Made by a program: the position numbers and the translations under genes
Source of the DNA: Flavisolibacter ginsengisoli DSM 18119
GTDB lineage: Bacteria; Bacteroidota; Bacteroidia; Chitinophagales; Chitinophagaceae
Assembly (NCBI RefSeq): GCF_900129295.1
Contig: NZ_FQUU01000007.1
Coordinates: 62,001 to 126,000, forward strand
Direction of reading: 5' to 3'
Length of the DNA stretch: 64,000 bases
Shown here: positions 1,117 to 55,665 of the stretch, piece after piece
Layout: the number at the start of each line of letters is the position of its first letter
Numbering within the stretch: the stretch's first letter is position 1
The notes under the pieces: model-generated
What the model saw: only the letters and a program-made list of their open reading frames with translations
Told to the model about the DNA's origin: nothing
Databases searched by the model: none

Positions 1117-2508
1117 ATGAGAACCATTATTGAACCGTTCCGGATCAAATCCGTTGAACCTATTTATTTCACGTCCCGGGAAGAAAGGGAACGCATTTTA
1201 GAAAAAGCTTTTTATAATCCTTTCCTGATAAGATCAAAAGATGTGCTGATTGACCTGCTAACAGACAGCGGCACCAGTGCGATGAGCAGCAACCAGTGGG
1301 CAGGCATAATGCAGGGAGATGAGTCCTATGCAGGAAGTCCAAGCTTCTACCGGTTTGAAAAAACAATAAGGGAACTAACGGGCATGCCAATAGTTATTCC
1401 AACTCACCAGGGAAGGGCAGCAGAAAAGATCCTTTTCAGCGTAATGGGCGGAGCTGAAAAATATATTGTTAGCAACACCTTGTTTGATACTACAAGAGCA
1501 AATATTGAATGCTCCGGGGCTACCGGCATAGACCTGCTTTGTGAAGAGGGGAAATATCCTTCGATACCTGCTCCATTCAAGGGTAATATGGACGTTGAAG
1601 CATTAGAGTCATTTATTGATGAAAAAGGTGCCAGTGTCATTTCATTATGTATGCTCACCATTACCAATAATTCTGGGGGAGGACAACCTGTAAGTATGCA
1701 AAATATCAGGGAAGTAAAAGCTATTTGCGAAAAAAATGGGATACCCCTATTTATTGATGCTTGTCGGTTTGCGGAGAATGCTTACTTTATTAAGAGCAGG
1801 GAAAAAGGATATGAGAATAGAAGCATTGAAAGTATTGCCACAGAAATGTTCTCTTTCGCAGATGGTTGCACAATGAGTGCTAAAAAGGATGCCTTTGCCA
1901 ATATTGGCGGCTTCATTGCCATGTATGATGAATCATTAGCGCTTAAATGCAGGAACCTTCTGATCATAACTGAAGGTTTTCCCACTTATGGTGGCCTGGC
2001 AGGACGTGACCTTGAGGCCATTGCTATAGGCCTTGAAGAGGTGATGGACGAGAATTACCTCGCCTACCGCATACGCAGTATAGAATACCTCACAAACAAA
2101 CTGGTGGAGGCAGGTGTGCCTGTTATGCAACCAGCAGGTGGCCATGCAGTTTACCTGGATGCCAAGGCTTTTCTCCCCCAAATTCCAGTAGACCAATATC
2201 CCGGCCAGGTGCTTGCCTGTGCTCTTTATTTGGAAGGGGGTATCCGAAGCGTGGAAATTGGATCGTTGATGTTTGGTAAATATGACAATTGCGGAGCACT
2301 GGTGCCAGCGGCTATGGAATTAGTACGGTTGGCTATTCCACGTAGAGTGTATACCCAAAGTCATATTGATTATGTGGCTGAAGTGATACTGGAAGTATTT
2401 AAAAAAAGAAAGGAGTTAAAAGGATTACGTATTGTTGAAGAAGCCCTGGTATTAAGGCATTTCACCGCAAAATTTGAATGGGCGTCAGAAAGCTTTTGCT
2501 TTGCCTGA
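1117..2508 (+). CDS. tnaA: Tryptophanase (tryptophan indole-lyase)
   Basis: PLP-dependent beta-elimination enzyme splitting L-tryptophan into indole, pyruvate and ammonia; cytosolic. The 463-residue length is normal for the tryptophanase/tyrosine phenol-lyase family. The PLP lysine is the second lysine of MSAKKDAF (Lys257). Three places favour tryptophanase over tyrosine phenol-lyase: FDTT near residue 127 (phenol-lyases have FTTT), RSVEIGS in the C-terminal part (phenol-lyases have RSMERG), and LRHFTAKF near the C-terminus, where the histidine replaces the phenol-lyase phenylalanine. There is no tryptophan permease or TnaC-like leader next to it, so it stands alone; substrate choice rests on these motifs. 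A strong hairpin terminator follows. Confidence 0.88.
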   Translation: MRTIIEPFRIKSVEPIYFTSREERERILEKAFYNPFLIRSKDVLIDLLTDSGTSAMSSNQWAGIMQGDESYAGSPSFYRFEKTIRELTGMPIVIPTHQGRAAEKILFSVMGGAEKYIVSNTLFDTTRANIECSGATGIDLLCEEGKYPSIPAPFKGNMDVEALESFIDEKGASVISLCMLTITNNSGGGQPVSMQNIREVKAICEKNGIPLFIDACRFAENAYFIKSREKGYENRSIESIATEMFSFADGCTMSAKKDAFANIGGFIAMYDESLALKCRNLLIITEGFPTYGGLAGRDLEAIAIGLEEVMDENYLAYRIRSIEYLTNKLVEAGVPVMQPAGGHAVYLDAKAFLPQIPVDQYPGQVLACALYLEGGIRSVEIGSLMFGKYDNCGALVPAAMELVRLAIPRRVYTQSHIDYVAEVILEVFKKRKELKGLRIVEEALVLRHFTAKFEWASESFCFA

Positions 2509-2544
2509 CTTTATTTGGAGTAGAAGTTGGTTTAACTCCATAAA

Positions 2545-2573
2545 AAAAGGCGCAACCTTAGGTTGCGCCTTTT
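2545..2573. terminator. Bidirectional intrinsic terminator
   Basis: A perfect stem GGCGCAACC/GGTTGCGCC with loop TTA, flanked by A-run and T-run, sits between two convergent genes (tnaA and the glycine-zipper lipoprotein) and can serve both. Confidence 0.88.
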
Positions 2574-2590
2574 ACAATATTTATAGAAGA

Positions 2591-3094
2591 TCAATGACGA
2601 CCATCTTTTTTATCCATGTCATGACCAATCACAGCGCCTGCGCCTGCACCTACTACTCCACCAATTACAGCGCCGGCAGCCCGGTTCTGCTTATTGATAA
2701 CGGCACCTGCACCTGCACCAACCACACCGCCAATTACCGCACCTTTAGCTGTTTTACTCCAGCCTTTTTTTGCCGGGGCTGCAGTACCTGTAGATCCAGA
2801 AGAACTTGTTCCGGATGAAGCAGTTCCTGAATTAGTGCTACCAGAAGTGGTTCTATGTGTTGATTCTTTAGCTGAAGAGACAGCAGCACTGTGGCTGTTC
2901 TCCGTTGCCTGACTCTTATTCGCATCTAACTCATGCTCTGCTTTCCAGGCCTGGTAGGCTGCTAAACCGGTAGTGTCATTAACAAACTTAAGAGAATCTG
3001 AAAGACTGTAAGTAGTTCCTGCTGGGGTTTTGGGGCCGTTGTTACAAGCTATCAAAAAAGTGAAGGCACTCAAAAAAATTAAACTGCGTTTCAT
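2591..3094 (-). CDS. Glycine-zipper lipoprotein
   Basis: A 167-residue secreted lipoprotein. The signal peptide ends in FLIAC, with the lipidated cysteine at residue 17. After a Ser/Thr-rich linker (about residues 70-108) come two exact copies of the 16-residue unit starting GAVIGGVVGAG, separated by a short NKQNRAA spacer. This is a glycine-zipper domain of the YMGG/OmpA-like kind, which in other bacteria packs as paired helices in or against the outer membrane. The specific role is unknown. The start is the only ATG that gives a good signal peptide. It is convergent with tnaA and transcribed alone. Confidence 0.85.
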   Translation of the reverse strand: MKRSLIFLSAFTFLIACNNGPKTPAGTTYSLSDSLKFVNDTTGLAAYQAWKAEHELDANKSQATENSHSAAVSSAKESTHRTTSGSTNSGTASSGTSSSGSTGTAAPAKKGWSKTAKGAVIGGVVGAGAGAVINKQNRAAGAVIGGVVGAGAGAVIGHDMDKKDGRH

Positions 3095-3268
3095 GGGTTT
3101 TCCTTTAGGGTTATTTTAATATTCAACTAAGATACAGGAATTAAAAAGAGCAGGCCAAAGTATTAATCCCTGACTATGCTTAGTATATATACCATGTCTT
3201 TTACATATGCATACATATATTATAAGCGATTATTTATTTAATGAAAGTGAAGGTTCTCTTTTGCTAAT

Positions 3269-3276
3269 TACTTTTG
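3269..3276 (+). promoter_or_regulatory. Putative -7 box for the DUF1415 gene
   Basis: TACTTTTG is an exact match to TAnnTTTG, 21 bases before the start codon, giving a short leader. GTG, a one-base mismatch to the -33 TTG, lies near the expected place at 3247-3249. Confidence 0.5.
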
Positions 3277-3296
3277 CCTATCAATGATAAAGATCA

Positions 3297-3845
3297 ATGA
3301 CAGAAAAAGAAATAATCATAGCACAAACCAAAAAATGGATTGTGGATGTTGTGGTGGGTTGCAATTTTTGCCCTTTTGCTGCACCTGTAGTTAAAGCCGG
3401 TACCATACATTATGAGGTAATTGAAAATGCAAATGCACAAACTACCCTCGAAGCATTGATGAATGCTTTCGCATTTTTGGATGCTAATGAAGATATAGAA
3501 ACAATGTTCCTTATTTTGCCTCATCGCTTTAGTTCTTTTGATGAGTACCTGGGATTAGTGGAATTATCAGACTCTTTGTTGGCAGACCAGGGAAAAGAGG
3601 GCATATACCAGGTTGCATCATTTCACCCCGCATATATATTTGATGGTTCAACGGAAGAAGATCCCTCTAATTATACCAACCGCTCCCCATACCCGATGCT
3701 GCATTTATTACGTGAAGAGAGTGTGAGCCGTGCCATTGATTCTTTTCCAGGCACTGAAAAAATACCCCAGCGTAATATCAAATTCGCAAGACAAAAAGGT
3801 ATTATCTATATGCGCAGCCTATGGGAATCAACTTTCAAAGCATAG
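3297..3845 (+). CDS. DUF1415 family protein
   Basis: A 182-residue cytosolic protein with the family signature near the N-terminus: GCNFCPF at residues 21-27, whose two cysteines suggest a metal or redox site. Further conserved-looking parts are LPHRFSSFDEYL (about 78-89) and FHPAYIFDG (about 108-116). The length is usual for the family. No function is established, and the isolated position between convergent neighbours gives no clue. Confidence 0.88.
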   Translation: MTEKEIIIAQTKKWIVDVVVGCNFCPFAAPVVKAGTIHYEVIENANAQTTLEALMNAFAFLDANEDIETMFLILPHRFSSFDEYLGLVELSDSLLADQGKEGIYQVASFHPAYIFDGSTEEDPSNYTNRSPYPMLHLLREESVSRAIDSFPGTEKIPQRNIKFARQKGIIYMRSLWESTFKA

Positions 3846-3847
3846 AA

Positions 3848-3880
3848 TAAAAAAGCCCGGAGTAAACTCCGGGCTGGTAT
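3848..3880 (-). terminator. Intrinsic terminator between convergent genes
   Basis: Stem AGCCCGGAGT/ACTCCGGGCT at 3854-3863 and 3866-3875. Read on the minus strand it is followed by a run of six T, so it mainly terminates the desaturase gene; it can also stop the DUF1415 transcript. Confidence 0.85.
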
Positions 3881-3897
3881 TTAAAATAAAGTATTGA

Positions 3898-4899
3898 TCA
3901 TTTTACCAACCAGGCAAGCTTTACAGCTTCCGGTTCTTTCATTCTTTCGGCAATACGCTTATATCTGTCTGCCAGGGTGGACAGATAATCCTGCGCACGG
4001 GCAGCATAGTCACTAAGGCCAGTGAGTGATTCCACCTTCCAGAGGTCGGTTAGATGCTTGATGATAGAGGCATAATCGAATGTAGTATAAATGCCTAATT
4101 TCTGTGTAATGGCAGAAAACCTTGTAAACAGGTTATCTGTTGTTGCATTATCCATTAATATGGCAGGCATAACGATCTGCTTTTTCATCATTTTCTCAAA
4201 AGCAAGCAATGCTCCATCCGGATCAATTTCAAAGATGTGTGACATGAAAGATTTATATGCCTTTTCATGCCTGCCTTCATCGCCAGCGATCGTTTTGCAA
4301 ATCCTGGATAGAACGATGTCACCGCTTTTATCTGCCAGCTTGCCGGTATTTACATGCGAGATACGTGTAGCTCTTTCCTGGAAAGATGTGTAGATCATGG
4401 CCTGGTAGGGGTCACCTTCGGTTTGTGGATCAAATCCATTTCCTATAAGATTATGTATTGTGATCTCCACCTGTTTCATATCCGCACGACCCGAAAGATA
4501 GAGGTATTTATTCAGCAGGTCCCCATGGCGGTTTTCCTCTGCTGTCCATGACCTGGACCAGCGCACCCAACCTTGATCACTGGCAATATTACCTTCTTCA
4601 TTAATACCTTTTACCAGGTTAAAAAAAGTTTGATAGGTAGGAAGCGCTTCTTCAGTGATCATATTGCCCACTAATGAGGTAATTACCTCCGGAGGTAACC
4701 CAGCTGCACGCTGCTGTAATGAAGCCACCTGCTCCAGTGCACCATCAGTACTCATATCAGGTAAAAAATCTGAAGGTTGCCAACATGTTTGTGGATCAAC
4801 TAAAATTGTGTCAACAGCATTTGCAGCAATATCCTGCATACCACTGATCACTTCCATATTTTTTTCCAACTCATTCCTTGTGGGCGTATAATGTAACAT
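3898..4899 (-). CDS. Acyl-ACP desaturase (ferritin-like diiron enzyme)
   Basis: A 333-residue soluble enzyme of the plant stearoyl-ACP desaturase family, inserting a cis double bond into an acyl chain bound to acyl carrier protein. The diiron ligands can be read off: TEE near residues 83-84, EENRH at 121-125, FQERA near 175, and DEGRHE at 207-212, giving the two E-x-x-H motifs. There are no membrane segments, which separates it from the membrane-bound FADS desaturases. It likely makes monounsaturated fatty acids for membrane fluidity. Electrons presumably come from a ferredoxin encoded elsewhere. It is a single-gene unit with a 270-base upstream region. Confidence 0.92.
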   Translation of the reverse strand: MLHYTPTRNELEKNMEVISGMQDIAANAVDTILVDPQTCWQPSDFLPDMSTDGALEQVASLQQRAAGLPPEVITSLVGNMITEEALPTYQTFFNLVKGINEEGNIASDQGWVRWSRSWTAEENRHGDLLNKYLYLSGRADMKQVEITIHNLIGNGFDPQTEGDPYQAMIYTSFQERATRISHVNTGKLADKSGDIVLSRICKTIAGDEGRHEKAYKSFMSHIFEIDPDGALLAFEKMMKKQIVMPAILMDNATTDNLFTRFSAITQKLGIYTTFDYASIIKHLTDLWKVESLTGLSDYAARAQDYLSTLADRYKRIAERMKEPEAVKLAWLVK

Positions 4900-5063
4900 A
4901 ATGTTTTTAAGTTGTTTCTACTGTTTGCTGTTAAAGCGGTTTAAGAACAAGAATAATGCCCGCCCATACCGCTAAATCAATTTGCATTTCCTTTTCTTCC
5001 CATCTAAACTTAGTGAACAACCTCAGGTAAAGGTTTCGCTGCGAGACAAAAGATTAAGGCTCG

Positions 5064-5071
5064 CAAAGGTA
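5064..5071 (-). promoter_or_regulatory. Possible -7 box for the desaturase gene
   Basis: CAAAGGTA on the plus strand reads TACCTTTG on the minus strand, an exact TAnnTTTG. There is no -33 TTG at the right distance and the implied leader of about 160 nt is long, so this is weak. Confidence 0.3.
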
Positions 5072-5169
5072 TTTTAGTTCAAGCTAATGTTTTCCCATTT
5101 TTAGCATTTTTATGCAAAAAAAACGCTGTAATTAGCAAGCCGGAATAACAGATCCATTTACTTCGGTTC

Positions 5170-5799
5170 ATGCATAAGCCTTTTCAATACTTTGTTTTGA
5201 ATAAACCAGTTGGTATGGAATCCCAATTTGTAAGTCCATTCCCTGGGGATCTTCTAGGTTGTCTGTCCTACACATTTCCTGAAGGAACTCATGCTATTGG
5301 CCGACTTGATAAAAACTCAGAAGGCTTATTATTGTTAACAACCAATAAAAAGATAACATCTCTTTTATTTCAAAGTAATGTTCCTCATAAGCGCACTTAC
5401 CTGGTTCAGGTAAAACACAAAATGGGCCAGGAAAGCCTACAAACCTTGATTACAGGACTAGATATCAGGATTAAAGGAGGTGAGAATTACCGCACACCAC
5501 CCTGTGAGGCTAAAATTGTAAAATATGAGGAATTGAAATTCCATGCTCATGGCAGGCATAAGGCCAGCCTTATTACAACCTGGTTAACAATCACTCTAAC
5601 AGAAGGTAAGTTTCACCAGGTGCGAAAAATGGTCTTGGCTGCCGGACATAGGTGCATGAGACTTATAAGGATATCTATTGAAGATATGGAGCTTGGTGAT
5701 CTTAGACCTGGAGAAATACGAATTGTGGAACAAGAGCAATTTTTCAGGCAATTAAATTTAGACACTTCGTCCTTAATTTCTCCCAGTTCTCCCCAATAA
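5170..5799 (+). CDS. rRNA large-subunit pseudouridine synthase, RsuA/RluE type
   Basis: A 209-residue enzyme converting uridine to pseudouridine in ribosomal RNA. It lacks the N-terminal S4 domain of RluB/RsuA, and the sequence FVLNKPVGM starts almost at once, which is the RluE layout. The catalytic aspartate is Asp47 in GRLDKNSEGLLLLT, the family's motif II. KRTYLVQV (about 77-84) and KFHQVRKMVLAAGHRCMRL near residue 150 are the other conserved blocks. The RNA target cannot be told from sequence; RluE modifies 23S rRNA U2457 in E. coli. The transcript continues toward the next gene on the same strand 86 bases on. Confidence 0.9.
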   Translation: MHKPFQYFVLNKPVGMESQFVSPFPGDLLGCLSYTFPEGTHAIGRLDKNSEGLLLLTTNKKITSLLFQSNVPHKRTYLVQVKHKMGQESLQTLITGLDIRIKGGENYRTPPCEAKIVKYEELKFHAHGRHKASLITTWLTITLTEGKFHQVRKMVLAAGHRCMRLIRISIEDMELGDLRPGEIRIVEQEQFFRQLNLDTSSLISPSSPQ

Positions 5800-5885
5800 G
5801 AAAAAACTCCCTGCCTTTTTTAAATTACAATCAAAGAACATTTGAATCAATGGTACTGGTGTAATAATTGAAATTGGTACTGGTG

Positions 5886-7634
5886 ATGAAAAAAATCACC
5901 ATCATCATTTTATTCATAGGACTGATTGTATTATCAGCCTATATGTACCTGCGCCATTCAGTTGCCACCCCCGGATTTAAACCTGCTGCGGCAAAAACAC
6001 CTGCTGCAACACCTAAGAAAGCGGAAAGCGTTGCTGACCTGAGGCCTCTTTTTATTTCTAAATTGCAACAATTAGTTAAAGCAGGCACGGGAGGACTTTA
6101 CAATTTGTCCATCCATGAAGTGGAACCTGATGTGCTTAATGCTTCTATAACAATTAATCATGCAGAATTAATACCTGACTCTGCTGTTTTACTTCAATTA
6201 AAGAAATCTGGCCAACTGCCTGCACAAGTATTCCGTGTTATACTAGGCAAGTTAAAAATTGATGGCCTGGGTTTGCAGGATTTTCTTAATTCTAAAAACC
6301 TTGATTTGAAATCCATAAAGATCAGTGCACCTTCTATAGATATTTACCCTGGATCAACATCAGAAGCAGGGCAAAAACCACCCACTTTGTACCAGGGATT
6401 GAAAGAAAAGCTGGAACACCTTGGTATTGATCATATCATAGTAGATGGAGGTAAACTGGTCATTCATAAACCTAATGGAAGCATCGCTTCCAGTCTGGAG
6501 GGTATCCAGGTGCGGTTAGGTGATATTTTAATGGATTCAACAACACAATACGATAAGAAACGCTTCCTTTTTGCAAAGACCGCTGAACTATCCATGAAGA
6601 ATTACAGGACATCCACCAAAGATGGAATGTATGATATGGCCATAGATGAAATATCAGTACACCCCACGCAATCTACCCTGGCGGCCAGCCATATATCATT
6701 TAAGCCCCGATTGGGTAAAAAAGAATTTGCTAAAAAGCAGGGGGTCATGAAAGAACGATACGATTTGTCTATACCTGCCCTGCGCATGCAAGGAATCGAT
6801 TGGTGGAACCTGGTCAACAAGGAAAAAATATTTGCTGAAGAAGCGGAGATCAGCCAGGCCAGGTTCGCCATTTACTTTGACAGGTCATTGCCCCCGGGAA
6901 AGCCTAAGTTAAATTCCTTTCCTTCACAGTTGATCATGAAATTGCCGATACTTGTTCATATTGCAGTATTAAAATGCAAAAACCTTGATCTTCAATATGA
7001 AGAATACAATCCATTTTCAGAAAAAACAGGCATTGTACATATCAGTCACCTGGACGGAGAGGTGCGCAACCTCACCAACCTGCCCTCCGCTATTCAAAAA
7101 AATAAACAAACTACAGTTAAGGCTAGTGGAATCATATTAGGCAAGGTACCAGCATCCCTTACCCTGCATTTTGATATGGCACGCTATAAAACCGGAGCAT
7201 TCACTGCAGATATCAATGTTAAAGGTTTTGATGGCAATGTAATCACGCCTGTTTCAGAACCTTTGGGTATGTTCCGGTTAAAGAGTTGTACGGTGCAATC
7301 AATTAAGGCACAGGAACAAGGAGACGAGGTTAGCGCTACGGGGAAAACATTGATATTGTATAAGGATCTGAAGATCATTCCGCTGGAAAAAGGCAAAGGA
7401 GATGATAGCAGCTTAAACAAAAAACATGTCACTGGTTTCCTGGCCAATGCTTTCGTAATAAAAAACGATAATCCATCTGGTAATGAAGCTGTACGTAATC
7501 CTGTCACCTCCTTCAACCGTGACCCGCATGCCAGTTTTTTTAACCTTATCTGGAAAACCGTGCTTACAGGTATATTAAAAACCACAGGTGCGCCGGAAAA
7601 ACTGGCAAAGCCAAAATATTACAAGACAGAATAA
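5886..7634 (+). CDS. Large membrane-anchored protein, AsmA/DUF748-like in appearance
   Basis: About 582 residues. I chose the ATG at 5886 (MKKITIII), giving an N-terminal membrane anchor at once; an in-frame TTG at 5868 would add only six residues. After the anchor (about 5-22) and an Ala/Pro-rich linker, the rest is a long beta-rich periplasmic or lipid-facing region built of patterns such as 'hydrophobic-x-hydrophobic ... ISAPSIDIYPG ... KISIDGL'. This resembles AsmA-like/DUF748 proteins that bridge envelope layers and move lipids, but there is no single diagnostic motif. The C-terminus is basic. No operon partner is obvious. The family call is inference from composition and layout. Confidence 0.6.
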   Translation: MKKITIIILFIGLIVLSAYMYLRHSVATPGFKPAAAKTPAATPKKAESVADLRPLFISKLQQLVKAGTGGLYNLSIHEVEPDVLNASITINHAELIPDSAVLLQLKKSGQLPAQVFRVILGKLKIDGLGLQDFLNSKNLDLKSIKISAPSIDIYPGSTSEAGQKPPTLYQGLKEKLEHLGIDHIIVDGGKLVIHKPNGSIASSLEGIQVRLGDILMDSTTQYDKKRFLFAKTAELSMKNYRTSTKDGMYDMAIDEISVHPTQSTLAASHISFKPRLGKKEFAKKQGVMKERYDLSIPALRMQGIDWWNLVNKEKIFAEEAEISQARFAIYFDRSLPPGKPKLNSFPSQLIMKLPILVHIAVLKCKNLDLQYEEYNPFSEKTGIVHISHLDGEVRNLTNLPSAIQKNKQTTVKASGIILGKVPASLTLHFDMARYKTGAFTADINVKGFDGNVITPVSEPLGMFRLKSCTVQSIKAQEQGDEVSATGKTLILYKDLKIIPLEKGKGDDSSLNKKHVTGFLANAFVIKNDNPSGNEAVRNPVTSFNRDPHASFFNLIWKTVLTGILKTTGAPEKLAKPKYYKTE

Positions 7635-7662
7635 GGCAATATTCATTGATGCTTTATCATGG

Positions 7663-7688
7663 CTCAATAATTTTAGCGCATTATTGAG
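7663..7688. repeat. Perfect 9-bp inverted repeat in front of the Ca2+/H+ exchanger gene
   Basis: CTCAATAAT (7663-7671) and ATTATTGAG (7680-7688) with an 8-base spacer, 20 bases before the start codon. It lacks a T-run, so it is not a typical terminator. It overlaps TAATTTTA (7668-7675), one mismatch from a -7 box, as an operator would. Confidence 0.5.
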
Positions 7689-7708
7689 ATAAACAGGCAG
7701 TAAAAACT

Positions 7709-8764
7709 ATGGATAAAAAAGAGAAATGGATCATTATGGCTGCTTCCGCAGCTACTATTCTTGCAGCAGTATTACATTATACGGAAGCATCCCCCCTGCT
7801 AGCCTTTATTATCACTGCAGCAGCGCTGTCATTGCTGGCCATGATAGTTGGTGATGCCACAGAGCAATTGGGAAAACGTCTTGGTCCTGGTGCCACAGGC
7901 ATATTGCAATCGGCACTAGGCAACCTCCCGGAATTGTTTGTATGCATATTTGCATTAAGGGCAGGACTGTCTAAAGTAGTTCAGGCTGCATTAATTGGTT
8001 CCATATTGGGTAATTCTTTATTGGTATTTGGATTAGCCTTGTTTTTTGGCGGATTAAAAAACGGCACACAACGTTTTAAATCCGGGCCGCCAAAAATGAT
8101 CGCCACTTTAATGATCCTGGCATTTGGAGCACTAGCCATTCCTACATTAACCCACATGATGCATACAAAGGCGGAAACACATTTGAATGCACTGGATATA
8201 TTCGTGGCCATCATTTTATTGATACTCTTTGGTGCCAGCACTTATTTCTTTTTAAAGCAGGATAAGGCTGTGGTGGCACCGCATAAAGAAAATGGAAAAC
8301 CTTCATGGCCACTGGGTTTGACTATAACTTTATTGGGCCTGGCGGGTGCAGGTGCAGCCTTTGTATCTGACTGGTTTGTTGTCGCTTTACAACCTGCTAT
8401 GAGCACATTGGGCATCAATGAAACATTTGCAGGCTTGGTCATAGTAGCCATTGCAGGTAATGCAGTTGAAAACCTTGTTGGCATTCAATTGGCCATACGC
8501 AACCAGGCTGATTATGCTGTAAGCGTAATACTTACCAGTTCCCTGCAGATAGCTCTCGGATTGTTCCCATTATTAGTTTTACTCTCATTCTTTTTAGGTG
8601 GTGCTATTCTTTCCTTTGTGCTGTCGCCCATGTTGCTCGCTGTACTGGCATTGGCAGTTATTGTAACTGCGTTCATTGTCTTTGATGGCGAATCTATCTG
8701 GATGGAAGGCCTGGCATTGATCGGTCTCTATTGCCTGATAGCCGCAGCTTTCTGGTGGGGATAA
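7709..8764 (+). CDS. cax: Calcium/proton exchanger (CAX/ChaA family)
   Basis: A 351-residue integral membrane protein with about 10-11 hydrophobic segments. It shows the two inverted alpha repeats of the CaCA superfamily: a first with GILQSALGNLPELF and then GSILGNSLLVFG (about residues 63-110), and a second with VAIAGNAVENLVG and SSLQIALG (about 245-290). The Asn-x-x-Glu pairs in the repeats are the ion-binding residues of cation/H+ exchangers. It should export Ca2+ (or a similar cation) against protons at the inner membrane. The N-terminus lacks the long regulatory extension of eukaryotic CAX proteins. Substrate is assigned by family. Confidence 0.87.
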   Translation: MDKKEKWIIMAASAATILAAVLHYTEASPLLAFIITAAALSLLAMIVGDATEQLGKRLGPGATGILQSALGNLPELFVCIFALRAGLSKVVQAALIGSILGNSLLVFGLALFFGGLKNGTQRFKSGPPKMIATLMILAFGALAIPTLTHMMHTKAETHLNALDIFVAIILLILFGASTYFFLKQDKAVVAPHKENGKPSWPLGLTITLLGLAGAGAAFVSDWFVVALQPAMSTLGINETFAGLVIVAIAGNAVENLVGIQLAIRNQADYAVSVILTSSLQIALGLFPLLVLLSFFLGGAILSFVLSPMLLAVLALAVIVTAFIVFDGESIWMEGLALIGLYCLIAAAFWWG

Positions 8765-8888
8765 AGAAGAAAGCAAGATCCCTGTTCATTATAAAATTAC
8801 CACAGGTTCAGCAATAGGGTGATATGAGTAAAGGGCGCACCTCATGTCAAAACCTTGAATCCTCCTGAGAAACACTATTTTTAAATAA

Positions 8889-9941
8889 ATGATTGTTATG
8901 CCCAGATCTGTTATCGCCGGAATTGGAATGTACGTACCCTCCCAGGTAGTGACTAATGAGGACCTCACAAAATATATGGAAACAAGTGATGCCTGGATTC
9001 AGGAGCGCACAGGTATAAAGGAAAGAAGGTTTGCCCATCGTACAGAAGAAACGACAACAACTATGGGTGTTGAAGCTGCAAAAATGGCCATGAAAAGAGC
9101 AGGAGTAAATGCAGAGGATATTGACTTCATTGTTTTTGCTACCCTTTCACCTGATTATTATTTCCCGGGCTGTGGAGTCTTATTACAGAGGGCTATGAAA
9201 ATGAAAGAAATCGGGGCTTTGGATGTACGCAACCAGTGTAGCGGATTTATATATGCTTTAAGTGTTGCTGACCAGTTTATCAGGTCGGGCATGTATAAAA
9301 ATATCCTTGTTGTAGGCAGTGAAAAACATTCTTTTGGTCTTGACCTTACTACACGAGGCAGAAATGTATCAGTAATTTTTGGAGATGGCGCCGGCGCGGT
9401 TGTATTGCAGCCAACAGAAGAAGATCGCGGTTTGTTAAGCACACATTTACACAGCGATGGATCGGAGGCTGAAGTGTTGGCCATGTATAACCCCGGCACG
9501 CATGCCAACCACTGGAAGGAAGGCCTGGCAGATTTTGATGAAGCTGAAGCAGCCCAAATGTTCATGAGCCATAACATGATAGATAAAGCTCAATTATTTC
9601 CTAACATGGATGGACAAACAGTATTTAAAAAAGCTGTAGTGAAGTTTCCGGAAGTCATTTTGGAAGCACTTAATCAAAATGGTTATAAGCCCTCAGACCT
9701 TTCCTTGCTAGTACCGCACCAGGCTAACCTCCGCATCAGCCAGTTTGTGCAACATAAATTAGGACTTTCTGATGAACAGGTATATAATAATATACAGCGG
9801 TATGGAAATACTACTGCCGCTTCTATACCCATTGCTTTATGCGAAGCATGGCAGGAAGGCAGAATTAAAAAAGGAGATCTGGTATGCCTGGCAGCTTTTG
9901 GAAGTGGATTTACATGGGCAAGTGCCTTATTGAAATGGTAG
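8889..9941 (+). CDS. fabH: 3-oxoacyl-ACP synthase III (FabH-like ketosynthase)
   Basis: A 350-residue thiolase-fold condensing enzyme that joins acetyl-CoA (or a branched primer) with malonyl-ACP to start fatty-acid synthesis. The catalytic triad is visible: Cys117 in NQCSGF, His in VPHQANLRI (about residue 278), Asn in YGNTTAASIP (about 307-311). It is about 30 residues longer than E. coli FabH because of an insertion around residues 205-235 (after EVLAMYNPG). The usual companions plsX and rpmF are absent, so this may be a second FabH paralogue with another primer or product. An ATG three codons inside (8898) is an alternative start. Confidence 0.88.
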   Translation: MIVMPRSVIAGIGMYVPSQVVTNEDLTKYMETSDAWIQERTGIKERRFAHRTEETTTTMGVEAAKMAMKRAGVNAEDIDFIVFATLSPDYYFPGCGVLLQRAMKMKEIGALDVRNQCSGFIYALSVADQFIRSGMYKNILVVGSEKHSFGLDLTTRGRNVSVIFGDGAGAVVLQPTEEDRGLLSTHLHSDGSEAEVLAMYNPGTHANHWKEGLADFDEAEAAQMFMSHNMIDKAQLFPNMDGQTVFKKAVVKFPEVILEALNQNGYKPSDLSLLVPHQANLRISQFVQHKLGLSDEQVYNNIQRYGNTTAASIPIALCEAWQEGRIKKGDLVCLAAFGSGFTWASALLKW

Positions 9942-9967
9942 CATTTTTTATTATTGCCGATATACAA

Positions 9968-10001
9968 TAGAAAAGCTCATGATAAAACATGAGCTTTTCT
10001 A
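9968..10001. terminator. Bidirectional terminator hairpin
   Basis: A perfect 14-bp stem (TAGAAAAGCTCATG at 9968-9981, CATGAGCTTTTCTA at 9988-10001) with a 6-base loop lies between the convergent fabH and PepSY-like genes. Confidence 0.88.
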
Positions 10002-10028
10002 TTACCATCAAATTGATACTGTTTGTTG

Positions 10029-10541
10029 CTATTTTGCTTTTTCTTTCAATACATTACCATTGGCATCTACCAATACTTTTGTTTTTGTATCACCATTTAC
10101 AAGGATCAACTCATACCCTACCTGGTCTTTCCATGATTCTCTTTGCGCTGATTCAATAGTATAATCTTTATACTTGTCTTTTAACATGGTATTTACTGCA
10201 TAAGGTAAAGTTGTATAATCTGTTATTGCATAAGTAGTTCCTACCCATGTACCATTTGCAGTATACCATGCATTGTATTTACGTCCACCCATATCAAAGC
10301 TTACCGTATAATCGCTGCTGGTCAAAGGTGACCATCCATTTAATTCCCAATCTATAGGTGCATTGGCTGCATCATATTGGGTATAAGTAACATTCGTTGC
10401 ATCGGGGTATTTCGCTATAAAACCAGTTCTGATATTAGCTGGTAAACCATAGGCGGCATTTGAAGTGGTGCTATTATAAGTAGTGCCACAAGAGAAAAAG
10501 AATACAGTTGCCAATACAAGGCTCAGGACTTTCAATTTCAT
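10029..10541 (-). CDS. PepSY-like lipoprotein
   Basis: A 170-residue secreted lipoprotein with signal MKLKVLSLVLATVFFFSC, lipidated at Cys18. The mature part resembles the PepSY-like (beta-lactamase-inhibitor-like) family common in Bacteroidota: a repeated pattern of 'hydrophobic-x-x-KYPDATNVTYTQY ... WELNGW ... YTVSFDMGGRKYNAWYTANGTW' and a second half with MLKDKYKDYTIESAQ ... VLVDANGNVLKE. Such proteins are small periplasmic or surface beta folds of unknown role. It is a single-gene unit. Confidence 0.8.
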   Translation of the reverse strand: MKLKVLSLVLATVFFFSCGTTYNSTTSNAAYGLPANIRTGFIAKYPDATNVTYTQYDAANAPIDWELNGWSPLTSSDYTVSFDMGGRKYNAWYTANGTWVGTTYAITDYTTLPYAVNTMLKDKYKDYTIESAQRESWKDQVGYELILVNGDTKTKVLVDANGNVLKEKAK

Positions 10542-33291: not shown

Positions 33292-34071
33292 CTACTTTCC
33301 TACCCATTCCTTAAAGCTTGCAGCCCGCTCCCTGCTGACGATGATATCAGAATACTGAGTTTGGGGATGAATTTGAAGTTTAAGCTTACCATTAAAATAT
33401 GCATGTATTTCATCGATACTTTTCACATGAATGATGCTGCTGCGATTGGCGCGAAAGAATAACCGTGGATCCAATTGTGTTTCCAGTTCTTCCAGTGTAT
33501 AGTCAACGATATATTTATGCTTATCCCAGGTAATGATATAAGATACTCTTCCTTCGGCTACCATATAAGCCAACTGGTTGATCTCAAGTGATATCAATCG
33601 TTGGCCCTGCTTAACTAAAAACCGGTCCCTGTAAGCGTTATGTTTTAGTTGTTCCTTCAAATCATTCACAAGGCTTTTCATATCCAATGCCGGGAGAACA
33701 ATATTGGGATTCCTGTCTGCATATTTATGGAATTTCTCCAGGGCAAGCTTTAGGTCTTCTTTTTCCACTGGCTTCAGCAGGTAATCAATACTATTAACTT
33801 TAAAAGCCCTGATGGCGTAAGCATCATATGATGTTGTAAATATTACAGGACATTTTACCTCTGTTCGATTAAAGATCTCAAAGCTTAATCCATCTGTAAG
33901 TTCAATATCCATTAATACAATATCAGGCTGAGGATTTGCTTCCAACCACCTGACTGTACTTTGAATGCTATGAGTGATACCAACAATGATAGCCTTTTCT
34001 TCAACTTCCATAACAGTGGCTTTTAACTTATCGATAGCCAGGTCCTCATCTTCAACTATTAGTATGTTCAT
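33292..34071 (-). CDS. LytTR-family response regulator
   Basis: A 259-residue regulator from ATG 34071 (MNILIVEDED). The receiver domain has acidic residues Glu7-Asp8, phospho-acceptor Asp55 in LMDIEL, and conserved Lys in LLKPV. The LytTR DNA-binding domain (about 150-259) shows FLVKQGQRLISLEINQLAYMVAEG and LFFRANRSSIIHVKSI. It overlaps the kinase gene by 20 bases and so is translated together with it. In Bacteroidota such pairs control surface or metabolic genes; its target is unknown. Confidence 0.92.
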   Translation of the reverse strand: MNILIVEDEDLAIDKLKATVMEVEEKAIIVGITHSIQSTVRWLEANPQPDIVLMDIELTDGLSFEIFNRTEVKCPVIFTTSYDAYAIRAFKVNSIDYLLKPVEKEDLKLALEKFHKYADRNPNIVLPALDMKSLVNDLKEQLKHNAYRDRFLVKQGQRLISLEINQLAYMVAEGRVSYIITWDKHKYIVDYTLEELETQLDPRLFFRANRSSIIHVKSIDEIHAYFNGKLKLQIHPQTQYSDIIVSRERAASFKEWVGK

Positions 34072-35149
34072 ACATTTTACTTTGAATGAGTGGAATGGTA
34101 ACTGTAAATTCATTTTCCGTTTGCAAAACAATGACTTCAGGCTGTCCCAGGAGTTTATACTTTGCAATGATATTAGCAAGACCTATGCGCGTTGATACAA
34201 CATCCGTTAGCTTTTTCTGCAGATTATTGCGGACGGTCAATTGTCCTTTTCCTGAAATCATTGAAATCACCAGCGGAGTTTCTTTCTCCACTATATTATG
34301 CTTGATCGCATTTTCAATGAGCAATTGCAGGGTAAGGGCTGGAACCTGGCATTGGAGTACATCATCTTCAATTTGCAGATCAAGAAAAAGACCATCTGTA
34401 AATCTCGTCTTCAGCAAATGAAAATAAGAATTGATAAACTTTAGTTCAGTTTCCAGTGTCACCAGTTCCTCTTCATTACTTTGAAGTAGATACCTGTACA
34501 CCTTACTCATTTCTGAAAGAAATTTCTGAGCCCTTACCGGATCTTTTGTAATAAGTGATGATACTGTGTTGATGCTATTGAAAAGAAAATGAGGGTTCAC
34601 CTGTTGTTTCAATGCATCATACTGGCCCTGTAGATTGATTCTAAGTAACTCCTCTTTTTCTGCTTCCAGCATGCCCAGGCGCCGTGAATATTCCATGGCC
34701 TCATAAATACCAGCATGCACCATTGCCAGCACTATACTACATATTATTATAACAGTTATGGCTTTGTAGGAATCTCCAACATGTAAACCTCTAACAAGGT
34801 GAAATCCATAAAAGCTAATAAGGAACAGGAATGTTGTAGAAGTAAAACAGGCTAGTACAGCCTTCCAGAACCTTTTCCTTTTTTTAACTGCGGCATCCTG
34901 TTGATGGATTTTACGGATCAGGTAGCGATTAAATTCCAGGATGAGTACAATGCTTACCAAATAATAAAACACAAAGAACCAGGTGCCATTCACACCTGTA
35001 CCATGCCTGTCCAGGTTCAACAGCATATTGATGGACAATAGGGCAATACCACCGATCCGAACCCATTTGTCATTGATCTGTGATGACTGCTTTTGCATAT
35101 AGTTGAACTCTTTCAGAACTCCTTTTACCCTAATTGTAAAATACATCAT
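34052..35149 (-). CDS. LytS/YehU-type sensor histidine kinase
   Basis: A 365-residue membrane kinase. Four hydrophobic segments lie in residues 30-145. The His-kinase domain of the LytS type begins near 180, with phospho-acceptor His187 in VNPHFLFNSIN, and an ATP-binding part with LLIENAIKHN near 280. There is no separate periplasmic sensor domain. Its start codon overlaps the stop of the small secreted protein upstream (ATGA), and its end overlaps the response regulator, giving a three-gene operon. Confidence 0.92.
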   Translation of the reverse strand: MMYFTIRVKGVLKEFNYMQKQSSQINDKWVRIGGIALLSINMLLNLDRHGTGVNGTWFFVFYYLVSIVLILEFNRYLIRKIHQQDAAVKKRKRFWKAVLACFTSTTFLFLISFYGFHLVRGLHVGDSYKAITVIIICSIVLAMVHAGIYEAMEYSRRLGMLEAEKEELLRINLQGQYDALKQQVNPHFLFNSINTVSSLITKDPVRAQKFLSEMSKVYRYLLQSNEEELVTLETELKFINSYFHLLKTRFTDGLFLDLQIEDDVLQCQVPALTLQLLIENAIKHNIVEKETPLVISMISGKGQLTVRNNLQKKLTDVVSTRIGLANIIAKYKLLGQPEVIVLQTENEFTVTIPLIQSKMYEHTNS

Positions 35150-36426: not shown

Positions 36427-36666
36427 TCTTAAAATACAGGTAGTTTTACTATTGTTTTCAACCAATTCTACCCCTACCTTTGACTCGGTTTTTCATAGGA
36501 TATTGGATTTTACACGAGGCAGGATTTCTATCCAGCCTTTTTCTTTTTATAACCCTCCGGTTTTTTAATCCTTTATTCTTTAAATAGTAGTTTTTCTATC
36601 ATCAATTTCGTTGATCTACGACCTTCTAAGTAATTACCATAAACAAAAATTAGGGCATTATTGCCA
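36427..36666. other. Non-coding spacer before the RNA unit
   Basis: I see no gene here. It contains T-rich tracts near 36560-36610 and leads into the promoter at 36667. Confidence 0.5.
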
Positions 36667-36697
36667 TTGCACAGGCCGCTAAATGCGGTTAGTTTTG
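36667..36697 (+). promoter_or_regulatory. Strong Bacteroidota-type promoter
   Basis: TTG at 36667-36669 and TAGTTTTG at 36690-36697 match the -33 and -7 consensus with a centre spacing of about 25.5 bases, as expected for the Bacteroidota primary sigma factor. The transcript should begin near 36701. Confidence 0.7.
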
Positions 36698-36700
36698 TGT

Positions 36701-36966
36701 CAGAAGTTGATTGATAATAAAATCAATCCTAATCCAAAGTCCAGAAAGATCGTCCATAACATAACTAATCCTGATCCTGGAAAAACCAAAACAAAATCCA
36801 ATATCAGTCAACTTCTTTCTTTATCCTTTTGAAAGCCCGTTTATAATCCGTATCCCAACATTGTCCTGAATCCTTTGAAAACCGAAAGGCGTACCGTTCC
36901 GAAAACAAACAAAATTTACAAAACCAACGCCTGATAATCTTAATCCCCTCAGTTGAGGGGATTTTT
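36701..36966 (+). ncRNA. Candidate structured non-coding RNA of about 265 nt
   Basis: It has a near-ideal promoter, no ORF, and a terminator hairpin at the end. AGAAGTTGATTGATA (36702-36716) pairs over all 15 positions (one G-U) with TATCAGTCAACTTCT (36802-36816), closing a 100-nt domain at the very start of the predicted transcript. A second helix AGGCGT/ACGCCT (about 36887/36927) lies in the 3' half. AATCC occurs six times (36725, 36731, 36767, 36795, 36845, 36869), mostly in regions that look unpaired. It does not resemble RNase P, tmRNA or SRP RNA. It could also be a leader for the SDR gene 66 bases after the terminator. Confidence 0.6.
36942..36966 (+). terminator. Intrinsic terminator of the RNA unit
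   Basis: Stem AATCCCCTCA/TGAGGGGATT with a 2-base loop followed by TTT. It lies 66 bases before the SDR start codon, and no protein gene ends just before it. Confidence 0.85.
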
Positions 36967-37031
36967 ATTGAACACTATTCCCCTCTTCCGCGTGGCGTAT
37001 TTGTTGATGCCTTTTAATAAAATTCTTATTT

Positions 37032-55323: not shown

Positions 55324-55665
55324 ATGAAACTTTTTGTAGCAGGCCTCCCTTACGATCTTTATGATGATGAACTAATGGAGATCTTCGAAAAATTTGGCAC
55401 TATTGCTTCCGCCAAAGTTACCATGGATAAAGAAACAGGTAAAAGCAGGGGTTTTGGTTTTGTAGACATGCCCAATGATGAAGAGGCTAAAGAAGCTATC
55501 GAACACCTGAATGACATCTCTCTTGGCAAAAAGCCATTAGTGGTAAAACAGGCTGACGATCGTGGTGGATCTGGTGGCGGCCAAGGCGGTGGTGGTGGTT
55601 TCCGTGGTGGCCAGGGTGGCGGCGGTTTTAATAAAAGAGACGACAGGGGCGGCAGGCGGTATTAA
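55324..55665 (+). CDS. RNA-binding protein with RRM and glycine-rich tail
   Basis: A 113-residue cytosolic protein. RNP2 is KLFVAGLP (2-9), RNP1 is KSRGFGFV (40-47), and the tail from about 82 is Gly/Arg-rich (GGGGFRGGQGG, RDDRGGRRY). It resembles small cold-inducible RRM proteins of Bacteroidota and cyanobacteria, which act as RNA chaperones. The start codon gives an RRM at once. A terminator follows. Confidence 0.92.
   Translation: MKLFVAGLPYDLYDDELMEIFEKFGTIASAKVTMDKETGKSRGFGFVDMPNDEEAKEAIEHLNDISLGKKPLVVKQADDRGGSGGGQGGGGGFRGGQGGGGFNKRDDRGGRRY

Follow-up and report, generated by a model that had tools for sequence, protein, structure and literature searches.

MicroRNA sponges such as ciRS-7 carry many bulged sites for one short RNA, and CsrB and RsmZ are multicopy RNAs with a repeated short motif and a shared upstream element, which titrate CsrA. 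The locus described here lies in a window of 64,000 nt from Flavisolibacter ginsengisoli DSM 18119 (the whole stretch of DNA that was analyzed) and recalls both. Its longer RNA, hereafter the array RNA, has many bulged sites predicted for one short RNA, as in ciRS-7, and combines a repeated short motif, several gene copies and a common upstream element, as in CsrB/RsmZ. Unlike ciRS-7, it is bacterial and linear, belongs to a multicopy gene family and ends in a terminator in copies of the window type; unlike CsrB/RsmZ, it occurs in genomes in which no CsrA was found, lacks GGA loops and has sites that match an RNA.

Sponge RNAs have also been described in Caulobacter, where CrfA acts against SisA-D, and in Vibrio, where QrrX acts against Qrr; in the portion of the source drawn upon here, CrfA pairs via one site, G49-C63 (PMC12559287). 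Like the sponges described there, the array RNA stands alone and is complementary to the core with which several sibling small RNAs pair. However, it has several bulged sites instead of the single one of CrfA, and unlike CrfA and QrrX as described there, it reaches up to 10 gene copies per genome among the matches listed, has one promoter type, and is found in genomes without Hfq above the Pfam cut-off (0 of 38 genomes; one weaker match in G020). The short partner RNA of about 62 nt resembles FopS and GibS, which the portion of the source used here presents as multicopy Bacteroides small RNAs with an open 5′ pairing region and a terminator that pair near start codons (PMC11697453). The 62-nt RNA is also a multicopy RNA of the Bacteroidota with an open 5′ region, a terminator and predicted pairing near start codons; unlike FopS and GibS as presented there, it comes from a different taxon and is accompanied by a putative array sponge. 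No Rfam family reached the cut-off for it, the presence of a FopS model in Rfam being unconfirmed.

Sponges are already known, while the two-RNA circuit appears to be undescribed; a search of the open-licence PMC literature by title and start of abstract returned nothing describing these RNAs. The putative sponge system considered here is built of two RNA families without an Rfam match. On the basis of sequence comparison, we propose that the region is probably a two-RNA module, in which a small RNA is accompanied by a dedicated multi-site sponge RNA directed against it.

The array RNA gene and its family

The array RNA gene of the window comprises the following features:

36609–36641, strand not assigned: upstream elements CGTTGATCTACG (36609–36620) and GTAATTACCATA (36630–36641), from position-wise conservation in 69 copies
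36645–36697, + strand: inverted repeat GGGCA/TGCC beside −33, TTG (36667–36669) and TAGTTTTG (36690–36697), from a 69-copy comparison
36701–36966, + strand: array (putative sponge) RNA, from its fold, covariance-model matches and conservation in relatives
36702–36716, + strand: 5′ arm of the closing helix, of which 36709–36715 can alternatively pair with 36722–36728
36802–36816, + strand: 3′ arm of the closing helix, from helix conservation
36887–36892 with 36927–36932, + strand: 3′ domain helix, AGGCGT with ACGCCT, found by eye in 12 aligned 3′ domains
36942–36970, + strand: intrinsic terminator of the array RNA, from a terminator search

The initial annotation had taken this gene to encode an RNA of its own with numerous decoy-like repeats, which fits the results, and the gene is confirmed as real with all the elements noted earlier. 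The promoter on the + strand has its TTG separated by a 20-nt spacer from TAGTTTTG, the 15-bp helix is fully paired (15/15, including one G-U), and the terminator consists of a stem at 36942–36963 plus a T-run; since these elements are conserved in relatives, they are not due to chance. The pentamer AATCC occurs seven times in 36701–36966, against 1.5 in shuffles, and seven copies were reached by 0 of 1000 shuffles; the six counted earlier hold once the copy inside the terminator stem is set aside. The segment 36701–36821 folds at −22.8 kcal/mol (z −5.1), and 36701–36970 folds with a z of −2.8. Two short mechanical ORFs overlap the array RNA, at 36683–36832 on the + strand (49 aa) and at 36689–36811 on the − strand (40 aa). 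The earlier statement that no ORF fits is upheld because the ATG of the first ORF lies upstream of the predicted transcription start and the loops of the 69 members range in length from 68 to 122 nt; a coding reading is rejected.

The view that the RNA belongs to no known family agrees with Rfam 15, in which the window and 13 related loci gave 0 matches at the gathering cut-off; permissive scans of both RNA genes returned sub-threshold matches only. A search for relatives revealed a multicopy family in the Chitinophagaceae, a family of soil and water bacteria. At the DNA level, matches at E 0.01 were found in 23 of 58 genomes, including further places in the genome of the window itself. When 31 members were used to build a covariance model for the 5′ domain, the model detected seven strong copies in that genome (77.7–105.5 bits; next match 34.8), which also holds one further copy without the long stem on contig 22. 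The model matched 107 of 294 sampled Chitinophagaceae genomes, representing 39 of 101 genera, and in an order-level sample 16 of 198 genomes, all 16 of them Chitinophagaceae. The conserved start was found on contigs named after Flavisolibacter, Flaviaesturariibacter, Flavihumibacter, Ferruginibacter, Terrimonas and Longitalea, of which Flavisolibacter and Terrimonas belong to the Chitinophagaceae; tandem copies stand about 408 bp apart in some genomes (such as G283). The loci studied were 60, hand-picked from the match lists (L085 via the DNA search), of which 59, from 40 genomes, hold a member. The 69 members were retained at 59 bits or more out of 91 matches; the 22 left out scored at most 33.8 bits, and 21 of them are opposite-strand hits at places already counted. 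The conserved start also lies on an IMG/VR contig of 15,965 bases (L207), which may be a misfiled bacterial sequence or a prophage.

The closing helix retains 13–15 of its 15 pairs in all 69 copies. Of the support that the initial annotation had called for, the conserved helix is borne out, but compensatory changes are thin, with two of 15 pairs changing on both sides among 31 sequences, which 26 of 500 shuffles equal. This thinness follows from the conservation of the arm sequences, in which eight of the 15 pairs never vary (31 sequences). Such conservation exceeds what a plain sponge would need and hints at a further role, perhaps involving a protein. An alternative local helix of the 5′ arm with at least seven pairs is available in 58 of 69 copies, compared with 21% in shuffles. 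The loops of the 69 members are G-poor (11% G) and enriched in AUCCA (201 observed, 47 expected), with UCC recurring at a spacing of 7 nt 53 times (6.6 in shuffles) and at 24 nt 18 times (2.8 in shuffles).

Further downstream, 12 window-type 3′ domains have an additional helix in common by eye; the pair that flanks it on the outside is C-G in three and A-U in most of the others, and the window copy has A-G at this position. A CCCGTT motif after the stem occurs in 16 of 69 members against 12% expected, a weak signal. A common 3′ domain of another kind, TCACCG...CCTCCTGCTA hairpin...CGGTGA, is found in L103, L107, L108, L118, L120, L130 and others that precede a BtuF-like gene; it looks structured, and the scanned loci of this type gave no Rfam match for it. 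Copies without the long stem occur on contig 22 of the genome of the window and in L203, L190, L198, L202 and L204. Two stemless copies (contig 22 and one in G003) keep the promoter, the array, the 3′ domain and the terminator; L190 and L198 have a conserved tail of their own, GTAAAATTTGTACCTATTGATGACCC, ahead of a terminator-like hairpin.

The promoter type is TA..TTTG in 66 of 69 copies, with the TA of the −7 box likewise present in 66; the spacer to TTG or TAT measures 20 nt in 61 counted cases, and the inverted repeat beside −33 is recognizable in 58 of 69 when up to two mismatches are allowed. At set distances upstream of the array promoters lie the elements GTAAATACCG and TTTACGA (69 copies). 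A sequence model of the promoter region, built from 44 of the 69 copies, gave 29 matches of at least 37 bits in six genomes, every one at an array copy; the next match, at 20.8 bits, is also a copy, and scores of 18.9 or less look like noise. As the matches fall at array copies, the signal looks private to the array RNA family; the model matches 116 of 294 Chitinophagaceae genomes. Fifty promoters could be read by pattern (45 with and five without the long stem), and the 250 nt after each contain 4 to 20 UCC, counts taken without a shuffled control. The pattern missed nine of 59 loci, comprising the sub-threshold L194, L200, L205 and L206, the viral contig L207, and the real matches L199, L212, L218 and L219.

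Two other readings of the array gene were rejected. An antisense-strand transcript lacks a −33/−7 promoter on the opposite strand in a pattern search of the 69 copies (0/69). For a MITE or other repeat element, the inverted repeats do not mark the element ends, conservation reaches some 80 nt further upstream than the arm and continues beyond the 3′ arm, the neighborhood is shared, and stemless copies exist.

The partner small RNA and its complementarity to the array

A second RNA gene, absent from the initial annotation, occupies 36452–36548 including its promoter. Its RNA is encoded on the same strand as the array RNA, with a start 214 nt farther upstream. Its features and the sites predicted for it in the array are the following:

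36452–36482, + strand: small-RNA promoter with TTG (36452–36454), 20 nt and TACCTTTG (36475–36482), read from the sequence
36487–36548, + strand: small RNA of about 62 nt, a conserved 22-nt 5′ segment followed by a terminator
36487–36508, + strand: 22-nt segment GGUUUUUCAUAGGAUAUUGGAU, presumed pairing region, known from exact copies
36518–36548, + strand: terminator hairpin and T-run of the small RNA, from its fold and a 31-copy alignment
36731–36890, + strand: predicted small-RNA pairing sites, starting at 36731, 36767, 36795, 36816, 36845 and 36862

The array-unit pattern ATCCNNNRTCCN{0,5}GAAAAACC, searched in the genome of the window, matched five places, none of them in an array and always with an identical 22-mer, while a control pattern gave 0 matches there. 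The opposite strand of each match is the 5′ end of a gene for an RNA of about 62 nt with a promoter and a terminator. At three mismatches or fewer, the 22-mer is present in 133 of 295 genomes, namely 125 of 176 in the Chitinophagaceae and eight of 119 outside, compared with 10 of 295 for a reversed control. Among the 150 matches listed, 133 are exact, eight have one mismatch, two have two and seven have three. Among the matches listed, exact copies of the 22-mer come from 18 genera and 46 genomes, counts that are lower bounds, since genomes showing no exact copy may simply fall outside the listing.

A strict TAnnTT-type box precedes 20 of 37 small-RNA copies, 19 of them at exactly 4 nt before the 22-mer, and 14 of these 20 copies have TTG at −33; the other 17 have a looser box or none. 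In the 31 copies that were aligned, the inner four pairs of the terminator are intact in 124 of 124 cells, and 10 cells carry changes on both sides, a number reached by 0 of 500 shuffles. The fold of the small RNA has a z of −1.9, with 10 of 200 shuffles folding as well. In some genera (L243, L244, L256 and L262), the small-RNA promoters carry an inverted repeat ATACC..GGTATTG at −33, the position at which the array promoters have GRGCA..TGCYC.

The six predicted sites of the window have duplex energies of −19.1, −21.4, −12.8, −16.8, about −11 and −18.6 kcal/mol in order, the site at 36795 overlapping the 3′ arm of the closing helix. Across the family, the 22-mer forms duplexes with the array loops at a mean of −21.7 kcal/mol, against −12.0 for dinucleotide-shuffled arrays, and 31 shuffled or reversed 22-mers average −12.5 on the arrays, with a best value of −14.4 kcal/mol. 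By duplex energy, 88% of the 69 loops beat all of their own 30 shuffles, and 67 of 69 offer at least two sites at −14 kcal/mol or better, as do 1% of shuffled loops. Complementarity continues in the 130 nt behind the closing helix (−17.8 against −12.3 when shuffled). The repeat sites are bulged, imperfect complements of the small RNA. Pairing covers positions 1–7 and 12–21 of the 22-mer, and the weakly paired positions 9–11 (35–45%) face the AUG of the complement; yet UCC-N0-2-AUGAA occurs behind the helix in 17 of 69 members against 2.3% expected. The UCC spacings of 7 and 24 nt are those that units of one 22-mer would produce. In computed duplexes, the array is hence complementary beyond chance to the small RNA, as a bacterial sponge should be.

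The two RNAs also occur together, another property of bacterial sponges: all 58 array genomes among 163 Chitinophagaceae genomes have the 22-mer, with gene anatomy viewed in 37 copies. The 22-mer without an array was found in 54 genomes, the array without the 22-mer in none and neither in 51 (Fisher p 8e-13, which counts genomes and not independent events); any match to the 22-mer with at most three mismatches was scored here, not a proven small RNA gene. When the promoter model is added, the corresponding counts for both, array only, 22-mer only and neither are 65, 0, 47 and 51. The arrays did not themselves produce the 22-mer hits, because none of the 69 matches the pattern at three mismatches. 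The arrangement of the window, with the small RNA 177–288 nt upstream on the same strand, recurs in six of 69 array loci, in three genomes; the other three possible arrangements within 600 nt were not seen in the 69 loci, and 63 of 69 array genes lack a small RNA gene in that range.

Neighborhoods and candidate targets

The array RNA has varied neighbors. A cystathionine beta-synthase gene is present in 28 of 60 loci, a BtuF-like gene in 25 and both in 21; all three lie on one strand, with the array RNA following the synthase gene and preceding the BtuF-like gene. In 10 of 60 loci there is a NarL-type response regulator resembling the one in L095, several with a HisKA_3 kinase, and receiver-only regulators follow some other copies. 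L095 itself holds, at 2500–10500, two array RNA genes within a cluster that encodes four response regulators plus two histidine kinases; three of these six genes were checked with Pfam and the rest by their first residues. About 1.5 kb upstream of the array RNA, the opposite strand of the window encodes a LytS-type kinase together with a LytTR response regulator (33292–35149).

When 497 start regions, with starts guessed from ORFs, were scanned for duplexes with the small RNA, four of the best six (L106, L125, L127 and L128) proved to belong to one protein cluster, which sits in a two-component neighborhood. CCUAUGAAGAACC is intact in three of the four leaders of this cluster (in L125 at 9271) and is one letter off in L106; the site is absent from the cluster members in L095 and L101. 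As a target of the small RNA, this cluster may be taken as a lead only.

A proposed two-RNA switch and the alternatives

Given the gene anatomy, family, shared promoter, complementarity and co-occurrence established by computation, a mechanism can be proposed in which both RNAs would be transcribed and would pair in the cell. The complement of the 22-nt segment reads as AUCCAAUAUCCU-AUG-AAA-AAC-C, i.e., a start codon with its flanks, such that the 5′ end of the small RNA would complement an AUGAAAAACC start region. The small RNA probably represses or otherwise tunes mRNAs via pairing over start regions. Within an open loop rich in A and C that the 15-bp helix closes, the long RNA would offer several complements of the 22-mer, most of them with a bulge facing the AUA of the small RNA, and further sites would follow behind the helix. 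If an inducing signal were to fire the array promoter via the shared upstream elements, the sponge would titrate the small RNA and free its targets, at a dose set by the number of gene copies and by tandem arrays. The AATCC repeats are best explained by the small RNA about 200 nt upstream.

The most direct alternative is a protein decoy, in which the AUCC repeats would bind an RNA-binding protein, for example one with an RRM, and titrate it as CsrB and RsmZ titrate CsrA. The repeats do lie in open, G-poor sequence, the genome of the window has nine RRM matches (one at 55330–55539 of the window), the conserved upstream elements recall the GacA site of rsm genes, and some copies are linked to NarL-type regulators. 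We nevertheless regard this reading as unlikely, as the repeats complement a small RNA with matching bulge geometry, RRM genes occur in two of 60 loci without clear linkage, and a survey of 386 genes shows AUCC to be depleted near start codons. In these genes, AUCCA is slightly overrepresented from −60 to −20 (25 vs about 13), and a TGGAT peak just after the start is put down to ATG-GAT starts. CsrA in particular was found in 0 of 38 genomes by a search that was positive in three of 14 control genomes, and the enriched motifs are AUCCA and its relatives, not GGA in hairpin loops. A CsrA decoy is rejected accordingly, and the CsrB-type comparison of the initial annotation, whose motif is GGA and not UCC, is unsupported as the primary reading. 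Because of the nine RRM matches, a protein helper for the two-RNA system is possible.

The pairing could also be placed in another context, with the array RNA serving mainly as a regulated leader, i.e., as the 5′ part of downstream transcripts on which the small RNA acts. The initial annotation had raised a leader as its alternative, and this may apply to some related copies that precede genes: by eye, no terminator separates some copies from the receiver-only regulators behind them, and in the 21 loci with both a cystathionine beta-synthase and a BtuF-like gene the array RNA lies between them on one strand. For the family as a whole it is quite improbable, since window-type copies end in a terminator, flanking genes differ among copies of one genome and are in some cases oppositely oriented, and tandem array genes stand within one interval. 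As pairing is symmetrical and both helices and 3′ domains are conserved in the array RNA, the roles might conversely be exchanged, with the array RNA as regulator and the small RNA as its antagonist; yet the 22-mer occurs without arrays in 54 of 163 genomes and arrays without the 22-mer in none, and several sites per array RNA suit titration, which makes this direction very improbable.

The sponge proposal can be extended from the window to the whole family, a step toward which we lean slightly. Bulged multi-site sponge gene families under one private promoter signal would then be the counterpart of the microRNA sponge, silencing a conserved anti-start-codon small RNA and freeing many mRNAs without Hfq or CsrA. 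The 22-nt segment, letter-perfect across the 18 genera and at least 46 genomes given above, in many of them multicopy and provided with its own putative sponge family, points to an important set of targets. If the proposal is true, bacterial sponges would widen from one-site antagonists to dosage-tuned multi-site arrays, and the Chitinophagaceae would gain a post-transcriptional two-RNA switch, with neither CsrA nor Hfq above the cut-off in the genomes searched.
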